Virus record (IMG/VR): IMGVR_UViG_3300009008_000013 | Coordinates: 47,814-111,813 of that record | Strand: one strand, 5' to 3' | DNA from: a virus | Length of the DNA: 64,000 nucleotides | Shown here: in pieces, positions 40,193 to 47,875 of the stretch | Layout of the letters: every line of letters starts with the position of its first letter | Position numbering within the stretch: the first letter of the stretch is position 1 | The notes under the pieces: generated by a model | Told to the model about the DNA's origin: nothing | Databases searched by the model: none | The model's input: only the letters and a program-made list of their open reading frames with translations | Made by a program: the position numbers and the translations under genes

Positions 40193-40632
40193 AGGCAACA
40201 CACAGGCACACATAATATCCACAATGCGGCTAAGACCCGCTCTCCTTGACGGTGTAGCAAAGGCACATTGAGATTCCGGAGATGATACAAACCACTATAG
40301 CATGGGCTAAAAAGACGAGGGTAAGAACCTCGCGTCTATTATTTGTTGAAACTGTAGCATTTAGTAGATACCGTTTGTTGGCGTGATAGCCAGGAGACTG
40401 TGGTAGGGAGTACAGGACAACCGCTTCCACGTCGTTAGATAATCCACAACAGTTTATAGGACAAGACCGAAGGAAAAAGTCAAATCCACACTTCACCCAG
40501 TCGGGTGGAGTGTGAGCAAAACTTCAGGAAAAAATTAAATAAAAATAACAATGTTAAATATAAAAAAGACTTTTCAAATTATACCTAGTTCGAGCGAAAG
40601 CGAAGAACTAGATGAACGTAGTTCATCTCATA
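40193..40632 (+). ncRNA. Gene-free stretch with strong stem-loops; candidate structured RNA or leader
   Basis: About 440 nt with no convincing coding frame. Stems visible by eye are GACGAGG with CCTCgCGTC (40314-40336), GTGGtAG with CTtCCAC (about 40399-40430), ACTGTGG with CCAC(3-nt bulge)AGT across 40396-40452, CACTTCACCC with GGGTGGAGTG (about 40488-40512), and two tandem hairpins at 40585-40627. GC content is higher than in the flanking spacers. This fits a structured non-coding RNA or a long regulated leader of the gene at 40633. I found no tRNA, tmRNA or RNase P signature. A -10/-35 promoter is not obvious, so it could be part of a longer transcript. Confidence 0.4.
40585..40627 (+). 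repeat. Two tandem perfect hairpins before the ATE-like gene
   Basis: Hairpin 1 pairs CTAGTTC (40585-40591) with GAACTAG (40605-40611) and has an inner GC-GAAA-GC tetraloop. Hairpin 2 pairs GATGAAC (40611-40617) with GTTCATC (40621-40627) around a GTA loop. The two share base 40611. The upstream ATG at 40612 lies within the stem of hairpin 2; the likely start at 40633 is six bases downstream. Confidence 0.75.
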
Positions 40633-41319
40633 ATGCAAATAAAAATATCAACTTACTTCGGTAAACAAGAAACTCGTGATGTAATAATAAACAATATATT
40701 CCTTGATAATGTCGAGCTATGGGAGGAGAGTCAGGCGTTACAAGACGGATTTTCTCTTTATATTGAAAATGGAAAAGAGCATTGGTTCATGTCACGTAAT
40801 ACTCGAATCTGTCTAGAAAAAACCAATTATAATTCGATAGATTTAGAATGGAAAATTGTCGATAAAAAACCGAAAGTAATTAAAAAAATTCTAAACGCAT
40901 ATCTGCAAAGAAATAATTATAAAGATTTATATTCTATAGACGAGGACTGTGATCGATTCAAATATATTCTTTATAAAGATAACGGAAAAATAGTTGCTAT
41001 TACAAAGTTACTCAATTACAGTAATGATGTAGAAACACATTTCTTTATTTGGAATTACCATAATCCTGATTTACATTTAGGTACTATTAGTTTAGAGCAT
41101 GAAATATGGTGGGCAAAACATAACGGATACAAGTATCTATACACTGGCCCGGGATATGAACAGAGCAGTATTTACAAATCCCAATTTCCTGGATTCGAAT
41201 GGTGGACTGGTATGGAATGGAGCGACGATGTTGAAATGTATATTAAGTTATGTAAACGCGACAGTAAAATAAGAAGTTTTAAGGCGTTAACTTCTTTAGA
41301 TCCTCAGGAACTTCCTTAA
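40633..41319 (+). CDS. Arginyltransferase (ATE C-terminal domain)-like acyltransferase, 228 aa
   Basis: The C-terminal 110 residues look like the aminoacyl-tRNA-protein transferase C-terminal (ATE/Bpt) domain of GNAT fold: GKIVAITKLL, then WNYHNPDLHLGTISLEHEIWW and AKHNGYKYLYTGPGYEQSSIYKSQFPG. In that family the LGT and the surface YLYLGYW-type strand bind the acceptor and the aminoacyl end of tRNA. The N-terminal cysteine-rich zinc/Fe-S part of true ATE1 is absent. The enzyme could add an amino acid or acyl group to protein N-termini, marking them for degradation. I use the ATG at 40633 because an upstream in-frame ATG (40612) is in a hairpin stem; neither has a strong ribosome site. Confidence 0.6.
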   Translation: MQIKISTYFGKQETRDVIINNIFLDNVELWEESQALQDGFSLYIENGKEHWFMSRNTRICLEKTNYNSIDLEWKIVDKKPKVIKKILNAYLQRNNYKDLYSIDEDCDRFKYILYKDNGKIVAITKLLNYSNDVETHFFIWNYHNPDLHLGTISLEHEIWWAKHNGYKYLYTGPGYEQSSIYKSQFPGFEWWTGMEWSDDVEMYIKLCKRDSKIRSFKALTSLDPQELP

Positions 41320-41544: not shown

Positions 41545-42114
41545 ATGAACGAAACCGATTGGACCCCGGCAGAAGCCGTAGAAAAAATAGAAGAACTAAA
41601 ACATTGGATTAGAACTTTTATTGTCAAAGAATTTCCCGAGTTAGATAACTTACCAGTATGTCCATATGCACCCCCTGCATTGGAAAATGACACAGTACGA
41701 ATAAAAGTAGTCAATGACAATCTTTTAGAAAAATTAAAAGAATATGTTGACAACTGGACAGATCGTGATGACCGTGGTAATGTTGAAGTATTAGCGGTTA
41801 TAACACCCACTGACAGGTATACGGTTGAAGAATATCAAGACATTTCAGAAAAAATTAATGAATATGCAAATCCATTAAATTTAGCGATACTTGATGACCA
41901 TCCGGGACATATAGAACAAATTGGTGATTTAATGTTTAATTTTGGCAAATCTGCATTAGTGTTAATGGCACGATTAGATGTATTAAATAACGCATCAGTG
42001 CAATTGGCAAAAAATACAAACTATTATAAAAATTGGCCTAAAGAATATTTAGAATGGGTTACACTTTGGCGATTTGATGAAGTTCCAGAAGAATTTAAAA
42101 AATATGTCGAGTAA
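41545..42114 (+). CDS. Unknown protein, 189 aa
   Basis: No family recognised. The protein is acidic and mostly helical, with charged N-terminal (EAVEKIEELKHWIRTFIVKEFPELDNLP) and C-terminal parts and no membrane segment or catalytic motif. It begins 6 nt after a perfect AGGAGG and follows a structured leader with a late box at 41457-41464, so it seems to be strongly and late expressed. It lies in a strand-switch zone between recombination genes and the tail chaperone; a virion or assembly role is possible but unsupported by sequence. Confidence 0.6.
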   Translation: MNETDWTPAEAVEKIEELKHWIRTFIVKEFPELDNLPVCPYAPPALENDTVRIKVVNDNLLEKLKEYVDNWTDRDDRGNVEVLAVITPTDRYTVEEYQDISEKINEYANPLNLAILDDHPGHIEQIGDLMFNFGKSALVLMARLDVLNNASVQLAKNTNYYKNWPKEYLEWVTLWRFDEVPEEFKKYVE

Positions 42115-42314: not shown

Positions 42315-42431
42315 TTAAATGCAGGGCCATTTACCAGCTTTCTTGCCTGCTTTGTAGCCGATGAATAGACTGAATATTGCCCCAAGTAATCCTAAGCCTT
42401 CATTCTGCTTTTTTTCGTTCTCTTGTTCCAT
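42315..42431 (-). CDS. Small membrane-anchored protein, 38 aa
   Basis: An ATG at 42431 overlaps the stop of the frameshift extension by one base, showing coupling. The product has a charged N-terminus (EQENEKKQNEG), a short hydrophobic helix (LGLLGAIFSLFIGY, residues 13-26) and a basic end (KAGKKAGKWPCI). It resembles the 37-aa plus-strand protein in size and in the GYxxGKK end, though orientation of charges differs. It is probably the last gene of the tail-chaperone transcript. A tiny tail-assembly or membrane accessory function cannot be excluded. Confidence 0.55.
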   Translation of the reverse strand: MEQENEKKQNEGLGLLGAIFSLFIGYKAGKKAGKWPCI

Positions 42432-42670
42432 TAGAAATATGGTAAACCTGATTGTTTTGTTGTTTTCATATGTTCTTCAATAATGTCAGAAAGTACTTTT
42501 CTTTCCTTTGCGGAAGTGTTGAACATCTCATTGATAGTAAATCCACCTCGCATATGCCATGCAAAACTGTATATTTCTTTTTTTATGGCTTCTACCTGAT
42601 TTTCGTAATTAGTAATTAACTCTAATATTTCTTCGTATTTTAATGATAGAAGCCTTAGGCGAAAAAATTT
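42431..42670 (-). CDS. gp51: Tail chaperone -1 frameshift extension (gp51-like), 79 codons without a start
   Basis: The frame runs from the slippery site of gp26 to a TAA at 42433-42431 and has no ATG, GTG or TTG before residue 40, and an in-frame stop (TGA) above it. Its sequence has helices (KYEEILELITNYENQVEAIKKE) and the AWHMRGGFTINEMFNTSAKERK signature of tape-measure chaperone extensions: a Trp-x-MRGG-type motif near a coil. It corresponds to T4 gp51 by position beside gp26. The slippage site A AAT TTT TTC makes in-frame fusion possible, giving a 354-residue gp26-gp51-like protein in a minority of translations. Confidence 0.75.
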   Translation of the reverse strand, partial: KFFRLRLLSLKYEEILELITNYENQVEAIKKEIYSFAWHMRGGFTINEMFNTSAKERKVLSDIIEEHMKTTKQSGLPYF

Positions 42671-43494
42671 GCGTAATCAAAAATTATAGGACTAGTAAAC
42701 TCATGGGAACATTCAGGGCATTTTACATCAATAGGGTCTAATACTGTTTTGTCTTTAATTTCTTGAATAGCGCCTGTAATTTTTTTGAATAATCTTACAC
42801 TAGAATTATTAACAAAATTAATAATTTCTTCTTGATCATCAACCATAGTGCCATCTGGAAGTTCAATTGCTTTAACACCTGAAGAAATAGCGTTGATGTT
42901 TATATCGGTCATTGTATTTAGTATTTCATTATACATTTCTTGCTTTTCTTCTTCTGTTTTTTCCTCCATTGAACCCACTGCCTCAATTGCACGTTGTTCT
43001 TCGAATGTGCGTCTTTGAATTAACGACAAATCCAAATAATTTAATGGTTTAATATGTATTTTAACTTGGCCATAAGGAATTAAGATTTGTTCAGGTTCAA
43101 AGGATATATCACCTAGTTTATTAATATAATATTCTAAACCTATTTGATAATCAAATTTTTCTTCACATTTAGGACATGAAAAATTCAATTCCATGTCATT
43201 ACCATAAGACGCAATTCGAATTGCTACTAAAATGAAATCAATATCAGTAGCAGGTACTTGCCATGGATCTTTAATAGCAGGAACACAACTTTTTATAACT
43301 TGTGCAATTGCTTCACCTGATATCAAAGCATCAGGCGTTTTAAGTACAATGTCATCCTTGGCTGTCATAGCAAAAACAGGAATCTCGCCGGATTCGGAAA
43401 TTTCTATAGATCCTGCAGGATAAAATTTACCTTCGTTAGGTAATGAGATATAAATCTCAGGTTGGCGATAATATTGTTCTAATAAACTACTCAT
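42655..43494 (-). CDS. gp26: gp26-like baseplate hub assembly protein (tail chaperone), 279 aa
   Basis: Starts MSSLLEQYYRQPEIYISLPNEGKFY, the conserved opening of gp26-like proteins in T4-like marine phages. Two CPxC pairs (C107/C110 and C259/C262) form a likely zinc ribbon. The end ANFFA is read GCA AAT TTT TTC GCC TAA; the run A AAT TTT TTC contains two overlapping X XXY YYZ slippery sites in frame, with a stop two codons on. A -1 slip joins the frame encoding gp51-like residues. The gene is divergent from the tape measure at 43568, so the chaperone and its client are neighbours. In T4 gp26 and gp51 are made from separate starts. Confidence 0.85.
   Translation of the reverse strand: MSSLLEQYYRQPEIYISLPNEGKFYPAGSIEISESGEIPVFAMTAKDDIVLKTPDALISGEAIAQVIKSCVPAIKDPWQVPATDIDFILVAIRIASYGNDMELNFSCPKCEEKFDYQIGLEYYINKLGDISFEPEQILIPYGQVKIHIKPLNYLDLSLIQRRTFEEQRAIEAVGSMEEKTEEEKQEMYNEILNTMTDININAISSGVKAIELPDGTMVDDQEEIINFVNNSSVRLFKKITGAIQEIKDKTVLDPIDVKCPECSHEFTSPIIFDYANFFA
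42661..42670 (-). promoter_or_regulatory. Programmed -1 ribosomal frameshift site
   Basis: Minus-strand reading, gp26 frame: GCA AAT TTT TTC GCC TAA. Both AAATTTT and TTTTTTC match the X XXY YYZ slippery heptamer in the correct phase. The 0-frame stop follows two codons later, and the -1 frame stays open for 79 codons. A short GCC/GGC hairpin spans the stop; no large downstream stem is evident by eye. Confidence 0.75.
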
Positions 43495-47635: not shown

Positions 47636-47875
47636 ATGATTTTACTAGAACTTTTTGGACAATTGGAAGAAAAAGAGGATAACGGTCGCTATGATTCGGA
47701 CTCTGATCAGACTATTGTTAAAAAAGAGAATACTCGTAAAACAAGACTAACACTAGAACAAATTAATAAGCTTAGAAAGGTTTCAGAACTAAGAACTGCA
47801 GAAAAAATTAAAGACGCAGAGAAATATAAGTTACAATACGGCGCGGCGCCAGCTGGCGCAGACGTCCCAATGTAA
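47636..47875 (+). CDS. Small prohead-region protein (gp67 position), 79 aa
   Basis: A charged, helical 79-residue protein: an acidic N-terminus (MILLELFGQLEEKEDNGRYDSDSDQ) and a basic coil RKTRLTLEQINKLRKVSELRTAEKIKDAEKYKL, ending in a short Gly/Ala/Pro tail (YGAAPAGADVPM). It lies 8 nt after gp20 and before the acidic core protein, where T4 has gene 67 for the prohead core. Marine T4-like phages have a similar small protein at this spot. The exact function is inferred from position. The C-terminal tail has no obvious (I/L)xE cleavage site. Confidence 0.65.
   Translation: MILLELFGQLEEKEDNGRYDSDSDQTIVKKENTRKTRLTLEQINKLRKVSELRTAEKIKDAEKYKLQYGAAPAGADVPM

Follow-up and report, generated by a model that had tools for sequence, protein, structure and literature searches.

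A conserved slip site in a T4 gp26-type phage gene, and the programmed −1 frameshift that very probably makes its gp51-like long form

Introduction

Among the closest described systems to the locus studied here are the G/GT genes of phage lambda, whose −1 frameshift arrangement is set out in the relevant section of PMC5009743, and genes 26 and 51 of phage T4. PMC3004832 counts the two T4 products among the hub assembly chaperones, and it also calls the conclusions drawn on the T4 hub contradictory and cites genetic support for gp26 being in the hub; a passage of PMC9024508 describes them as proposed chaperones or cofactors. PRFect (PMC10885494), in the lines that cite Vladimirov, Gautam and Davidson 2022, states that in some T4-like phages the two chaperone forms come from one short gene and one long, fused gene, and an excerpt of PMC12846349 credits the same 2022 study with poly-T slips in T4-like chaperone genes. 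From these citations and from the paralogy of gp26 and gp51, we read its two chaperone genes as gp26 and gp51. In the excerpts and citing texts covered by our literature search, we found no account of a gp26 frameshift in cyanophages or jumbo phages.

Here we analyse a gp26-type gene in a stretch of 64,000 nucleotides (the window) from the virus record IMGVR_UViG_3300009008_000013, positions 47,814 to 111,813. A first-pass annotation made from the letters of the window had proposed that this gene encodes a gp26/gp51-type tail chaperone in two forms through a −1 shift. The proposal is borne out in that the heptamer is kept among relatives, the extension is coding and corresponds to the C-terminus of gp51, while we infer the function and the efficiency of the shift. 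Taken together, the evidence makes it very probable that a tail assembly chaperone of the T4 gp26/gp51 type owes its long form to a programmed −1 frameshift. The trick is known from other phages, and the window gene is a well-supported new case.

The slip site and its conservation

The gene and the elements around it are collected in Table 1. Its product matches the Pfam family PF12322, T4_baseplate (1.5e-18 in a profile search, with 67.8 bits where 24.5 is the cut-off), and the PHROGs baseplate hub family phrog_150 (2.1e-19, or 6.2e-21 in a search of the whole record). The 3′ end reads GAT TAC GCA AAT TTT TTC GCC TAA on the minus strand, and the two overlapping in-phase heptamers that the first-pass annotation had pointed out there, A AAT TTT and T TTT TTC, are both present. 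As it had also reported, the −1 frame is closed by an in-frame stop just 5′ of the slip site and open for 79 codons from the point where its count began; measured from stop to stop, the frame runs over 81 codons from 42676 to the stop at 42433-42431. The layout is that of lambda G/GT: a short ORF carries an X XXY YYZ heptamer in phase close to its end and is overlapped there by an ORF in the −1 frame. The 1,064 nt of the locus are identical in four other IMG/VR contigs, which makes a read error in the six-T run, the technical doubt raised at first pass, very unlikely.

Table 1. Features of the gp26-type locus in the window (positions of the window; strand given as + or −).
Feature	Position	Strand	Product or role	Basis
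gp26-type gene, zero frame, 279 aa	42655..43494	−	short-form tail assembly chaperone (putative), T4 gp26 equivalent	
Slippery heptamer T TTT TTC, in phase	42661..42667	−		sequence
A AAT TTT, in phase, overlapping T TTT TTC, not conserved	42664..42670	−		sequence; 12 of 71 representatives
Zero-frame stop TAA, one codon past the slip	42655..42657	−		sequence
−1-frame extension, 76 codons and stop	42431..42661	−	would complete the 354-aa long form, T4 gp51 equivalent	
5′ arm of putative stem, GGCTTCTATC, starting 6 nt past the heptamer	42645..42654	−		recoding, shuffling, covariation
3′ arm of putative stem, GGTAGAAGCC	42587..42596	−		recoding, shuffling, covariation
Divergent neighbour, 770 aa	43568..45880	+	candidate tape measure protein	family profile

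According to the mechanism we propose, one gene would give two tail assembly chaperones. The majority of ribosomes would stop at the TAA of gp26 and release the short form, and a minority would slip back by one base on U UUU UUC, with tRNA-Phe in the P and A sites, and read 76 more codons. The slip would join 278 residues to these 76 and yield a predicted fusion of 354 residues that continues N-F-F-R-L-R-L-L across the junction, in agreement with the fusion of roughly that length through NFFRLRLL expected at first pass.

A search with the window gp26 gave 49 IMG/VR loci; in every one of them T TTT TTC is in phase and the −1 frame is open and conserved, and the same heptamer is in phase in 82 of 82 further IMG/VR loci taken from queries with the gp26 proteins of S-PM2 (80 of 284 S-PM2-type loci taken in) and KVP40 (two loci). 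Among 18 named phage records examined, out of 64 that matched, T TTT TTC is found in 13; in XacN1 and RAS14 a −1 extension follows T TTT TTT, in LR756511 the −1 extension comes with no slip site of this kind, and in LIS04 and LR756508 the extension is read in the +1 or −2 frame. The heptamer, whose conservation the first-pass annotation had proposed to check, is kept in near and far relatives. The resulting set of 146 loci (49 + 82 + 15), reduced to 71 representatives at 90% identity, consists of related sequences, so that locus counts are not independent events. LR756511, LR756508 and LIS04 were left out of it as having no −1 slip of the T TTT TTC type; 10 T4-type IMG/VR loci (obtained with T4 gp51 as query), two LIS04-like and 18 Vi01-like loci, and the named records HTVC008M, phiW-14, Vi01 and RM378 also stand outside it. 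In this outer group phiW-14 has T TTT TTC and HTVC008M has T TTT TTT.

Of the 71 representatives, 69 have TTTTTTC as the slip site and two have TTTTTTT; the codon before the Phe pair is always NNT (nine codons for eight amino acids), and the base after the heptamer is G in 66. As a control, TTT TTC is preceded by T in one of 44 other Phe-Phe pairs of the same genes. Conservation of the slip site goes far beyond chance. The overlapping A AAT TTT, found in 12 of the 71, is not conserved and is ruled out as the working heptamer, so that one of the two heptamers first put forward stands. A chance overlap or an assembly error is refuted by this conservation over the 146-locus set and by the four identical contigs, and we give it practically no weight.

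Deeper relatives show other arrangements. In Vi01 and seven relatives, examined from some 18-19 loci of this type, an open −1 extension follows and no standard heptamer was seen; all eight end in GAR ATT TTC ATY TAA, and their −1 extension is conserved. The extension lies in the +1/−2 frame in LIS04 (L067, 1486-2428), two LIS04-like contigs, RM378 and LR756508, and in the three LIS04-like loci it comes after GAR TTT TTT. Judged from these sequences, the LIS04-like, RM378 and LR756508 relatives seem to have changed to a shift in another direction.

The downstream stem

Downstream of the slip site of the window, the two arms in Table 1 can form a stem of 10 bp. An equally good stem is reached by 1 of 2000 synonymous recodings and by 2 of 200 shuffles (z = −2.69), and the rhizobial phages Atu_ph07 and Phosso keep all ten pairs at the same place. 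Over four chosen sequences the pairing is 100%, with five of the ten pairs changed on both sides; these four were picked for an equal span of their best stem, which makes the control optimistic. A second subgroup of nine sequences has a shorter stem with 88.9% of cells paired, against 25-53% when the alignment is slid, and one of its pairs occurs in four types. The two both-side changes in this subgroup were reached by 186 of 500 shuffles, and its share of paired cells and its covariation score were unmatched by shuffles.

The statistics over the 71 representatives concern sequences that were not picked by stem span. Stems with the 5′ arm 4-10 nt past the heptamer have mean scores of 15-18, compared with 8-9 after shuffling and 10-11 after synonymous recoding; against the latter p ≤ 0.05 in 34 of 71 representatives, and in the other 37 of 71 the stem is no better than recoding at this threshold. 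Relative to the synonymous null, stem scores are higher by 4.1 at offsets 0-6 and by 5.4 at offsets 7-13, and in the eight more distant offset bins the excess lies between −1.8 and +2.5. Folding of the 60 nt downstream missed the window stem (z = +1.3 for L002, one of the contigs identical at this locus) because its 3′ arm is located 58-67 nt past the start of the 5′ arm. By analogy with known frameshift sites, the stem, 6 nt downstream of the heptamer, probably slows slipping ribosomes and would in this way stimulate frameshifting.

The position of the stem also bears on the idea that RNA polymerase, and not the ribosome, slips on the six T's, an extra U in some transcripts then giving the same fusion. 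The T6 run as such would permit this. Polymerase slippage usually needs longer runs, and here the run is always in the same phase relative to the codons, has C at its end in 69 of 71 representatives and is followed by a covarying stem at ribosomal spacing, all of which leaves the transcriptional route very improbable.

Among the cyanophage/KVP40-type loci, 33 of 37 representatives have a Shine-Dalgarno-like 4-mer 5-20 nt 5′ of the heptamer, and the 60 nt downstream have a mean folding z of −2.0, compared with −0.44 elsewhere in the genes. Together with the heptamer this set presumably resembles the three-part dnaX signal. The 4-mer is found in none of 20 window-type and none of 14 jumbo representatives (7.1 of 71 expected), and it was rejected as a part of the window element. 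In the cyanophages it may only mirror a conserved protein motif (EGLQSFF in S-PM2).

The extension and its relation to T4 gp51

Differences between aligned extensions at −1 codon positions 1, 2 and 3 number 3125, 1810 and 5321, a pattern which indicates that the extension evolves as a −1-frame protein under protein-level selection. The consensus of 17 aligned sequences is RxRLL...IKK...WYMRGG...ER...NLExTKxSxLPFF, the cyanophage/KVP40-type extensions in this alignment being shorter than the others, and the extension is modelled as a hairpin of helices (pLDDT 85). Immediately after FF, ahead of any start codon, 17 of 17 aligned extensions have R, and a few others (e.g., L120, L153 and PA5oct) have a different residue.

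Where translation of this frame could begin independently is relevant to a second alternative, in which ribosomes re-initiate after the gp26 stop and make the extension as a separate small protein, the cyanophage "gp51", with no fusion. In the window the first ATG, GTG or TTG of the −1 frame encodes residue 40 of 79, the M in AWHMRGG, so the first-pass statement that no start precedes the middle of the frame is accurate there. It does not generalize to the family: the first half of the extension is free of such codons in one of 71 representatives, 40 of 71 have a start codon no more than 12 codons past the slip, in 27 of them an ATG, and the lack of a start whose conservation was to be checked is thus not general. 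Near ATGs are concentrated in the cyanophage/KVP40-type (22 of 37), where the gp26 stop of KVP40 overlaps an ATG of the right frame in TAATG, and where in S-PM2 an in-frame ATG follows the first base of the stop by five bases. The short "gp51" annotated in S-PM2, HTVC008M and KVP40 is the downstream frame, so that these records present the tail of the extension as a separate protein, named either "gp51" or "baseplate hub assembly catalyst". Re-initiation is nevertheless hard to reconcile with the rest of the evidence. Just one of the 20 window-type representatives has a near ATG, as do 4 of the 14 jumbo ones, a Shine-Dalgarno-like 4-mer precedes 2 of the 40 near starts (ATG, GTG or TTG), phages with an early ATG still carry the heptamer (82 of 82), the R after FF is encoded before any start, and T4 gp51 holds both parts in one protein. 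We consider separate synthesis highly unlikely and retain the fusion by frameshifting.

None of 18 annotated stretches draws the fusion as one gene; the extension carries no annotation or appears as a short hypothetical protein or as "gp51", and parts of it fall in PHROGs families such as phrog_634 and phrog_18291 (unknown function). For the named records examined, the present analysis corrects an annotation in which the extension is missed or is called a separate hypothetical protein or "gp51".

T4 gp26 and gp51 are paralogues (2e-6 in a one-to-one blastp comparison), and gp51 is a complete gp26 paralogue plus the extension. Over the 282 positions of phrog_150, gp26 reaches position 235-236 and gp51 position 280-281. 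Searched separately, the −1 extensions of S-PM2 and HTVC008M match positions 227-281 (1.4e-8) and 206-282 (2.0e-6), respectively. Four of four fused proteins scanned whole gave no match past position 244 of 282, and a direct profile comparison of the extension with the gp51 C-terminus aligned at the right place and weakly (E = 0.0022, probability 13%). Because the S-PM2 and HTVC008M extensions match the end of phrog_150, we take the extension to be the counterpart of the T4 gp51 C-terminus, a link supported through this cyanophage/pelagiphage bridge.

T4 has two phrog_150 genes, 26 and 51, which are divergent, with gene 25 coming after 26; each of the 25 other records searched has one. A single match was found in each of 10 related IMG/VR contigs and in the window record, which at 111.8 kb may be a fragment, and in which the two-gene arrangement of the T4-type is absent on this count. 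The heptamer is absent from the T4-type gp26 genes (10 of 10 seen), which keep a related 3′ end.

In a tree of 55 rows, T4-type gp26 and gp51 are sisters (91/82), and this T4-type group falls with the frameshifting genes of KVP40-like phages and cyanophages/pelagiphages (80/72, an open fork), the window-type and jumbo genes standing across the midpoint (99/98). The root is the midpoint, inner forks are unresolved, and one T4-type gp51 (L172) was omitted as too short. Since this midpoint-rooted tree nests the T4 duplication among frameshifting lineages, the frameshift is probably ancestral. The first-pass annotation had taken the separate T4 genes for a derived state in which the downstream frame acquired its own start; the tree agrees with the first part, and the second is wrong, gp51 being a full paralogue.

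A joint reading that we regard as reasonably likely is that a −1 shift on T TTT TTC with a stem at ~6 nt is ancestral in the T4-like/jumbo assemblage, that 26 and 51 arose from one later duplication, and that the extension of the LIS04-like and RM378 phages moved to the +1/−2 frame. T4 would then probably have swapped the frameshift for paralogues, 26 as the short form with the heptamer lost and 51 as the long form frozen by in-frame fusion. If this is true, T4, the textbook case, is the exception, and gene duplication probably replaced programmed frameshifting; for specialists this may be the most useful part of the analysis.

Neighbouring genes and probable function

The 770-aa neighbour of the gp26-type gene was compared, as a family profile, with nine proteins, and the E-values refer to those nine and to sequences of strong composition bias. 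It matches proteins of CBB (3.9e-19), RaK2 (ORF088, 1.2e-15), PA5oct (2.8e-13) and PBECO4 (3.1e-12), all of which adjoin gp26 and one of which, RaK2 ORF088, is annotated as similar to a tape measure. Lower down are the putative tape measure of HTVC008M (2.3e-5), T4 gp29 (0.041) and the LIS04 protein (0.48), and among the nine the neighbours in KVP40 and S-PM2 are unmatched. On these matches the 770-aa protein is a probable tape measure protein. The tape measure gene reported next door at first pass thus has an adjacent candidate, though on the opposite strand and divergent from gp26.

Two further ORFs of the window lie on the plus strand. The one at 40612-41319 has a weak match to PF04377, the C-terminal domain of arginyl-tRNA-protein transferase (2e-5, 25.6 bits, the cut-off being 25), which is odd in a phage, and the 189-aa ORF at 41545-42114 comes just under the cut-offs of DUF6875 and DUF1415 (3.8e-5 and 1.1e-4), domains of unknown function.

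The AlphaFold2 model of gp26 has a pLDDT of 91. A Foldseek search of the PDB with it returned no match at E ≤ 0.001, and the best hit of the gp26 profile among sequences of solved structures was an unrelated protein (E = 0.13). In a second structural alignment, the HK97 chaperone (PDB: 2ob9) is at rank 33 with 98 of 107 residues aligned, an RMSD of 4.4 and Z = 5.8, a value in the range that this tool commonly gives for unrelated helical models; most of the rows listed cover the long helix region alone. A likeness of the gp26 model to the HK97 chaperone fold is suggestive only.

These comparisons matter for a third alternative, in which the frameshift is real and its product is a structural protein of the baseplate hub, not a tape measure chaperone. 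The annotation as baseplate hub, the lack of a clear relative in Foldseek and the contradictory hub literature with its genetic support for gp26 (PMC3004832) speak in its favour. Gene order in relatives leans the other way: HTVC008M has tail tube, gp26, gp51, one small ORF and putative tape measure; LIS04 has tail tube, gp26-like gene and tape measure; and in KVP40 the tail tube is followed by gp26, a short gp51 and an unnamed 656-aa ORF. So do the logic of a short and a long form, the HK97 chaperone alignment with its low Z, and the published identification of T4-like chaperone genes, as conveyed by the title of the 2022 study and the papers citing it. A hub role for the frameshift product is, in our estimate, improbable. 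If the chaperone pair works like lambda G and GT, the tape measure protein would be coated by the short form, and the helical C-terminal part of the long form would recruit the tail tube protein.

Comparison with known systems

With its covarying stem, the locus offers a slip site ready for a reporter. The likeness to lambda G/GT includes the short ORF, the slip near its end, the −1 extension and a tape measure candidate alongside; it is a likeness of layout, and the window differs in its heptamer, T TTT TTC, and in the divergent orientation of the candidate tape measure gene. Compared with the HK97 tail assembly chaperone, the window gp26 is more than twice as long. The chaperone of phage Adele, of the Vandenendeviridae/Andersonviridae, likewise has a −1 shift at poly-T and a conserved extension, according to PMC12846349, which places it in other myovirus families and gives GTTTTT as its slip. 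The T4 pair gp26/gp51 belongs to the same family (PF12322/phrog_150), has a homologous N-domain and ends, in gp51, with what appears to be the counterpart of the extension; T4 keeps its two forms as separate divergent genes without a slip site, whereas in the window record a single gene, slip site included, was found.
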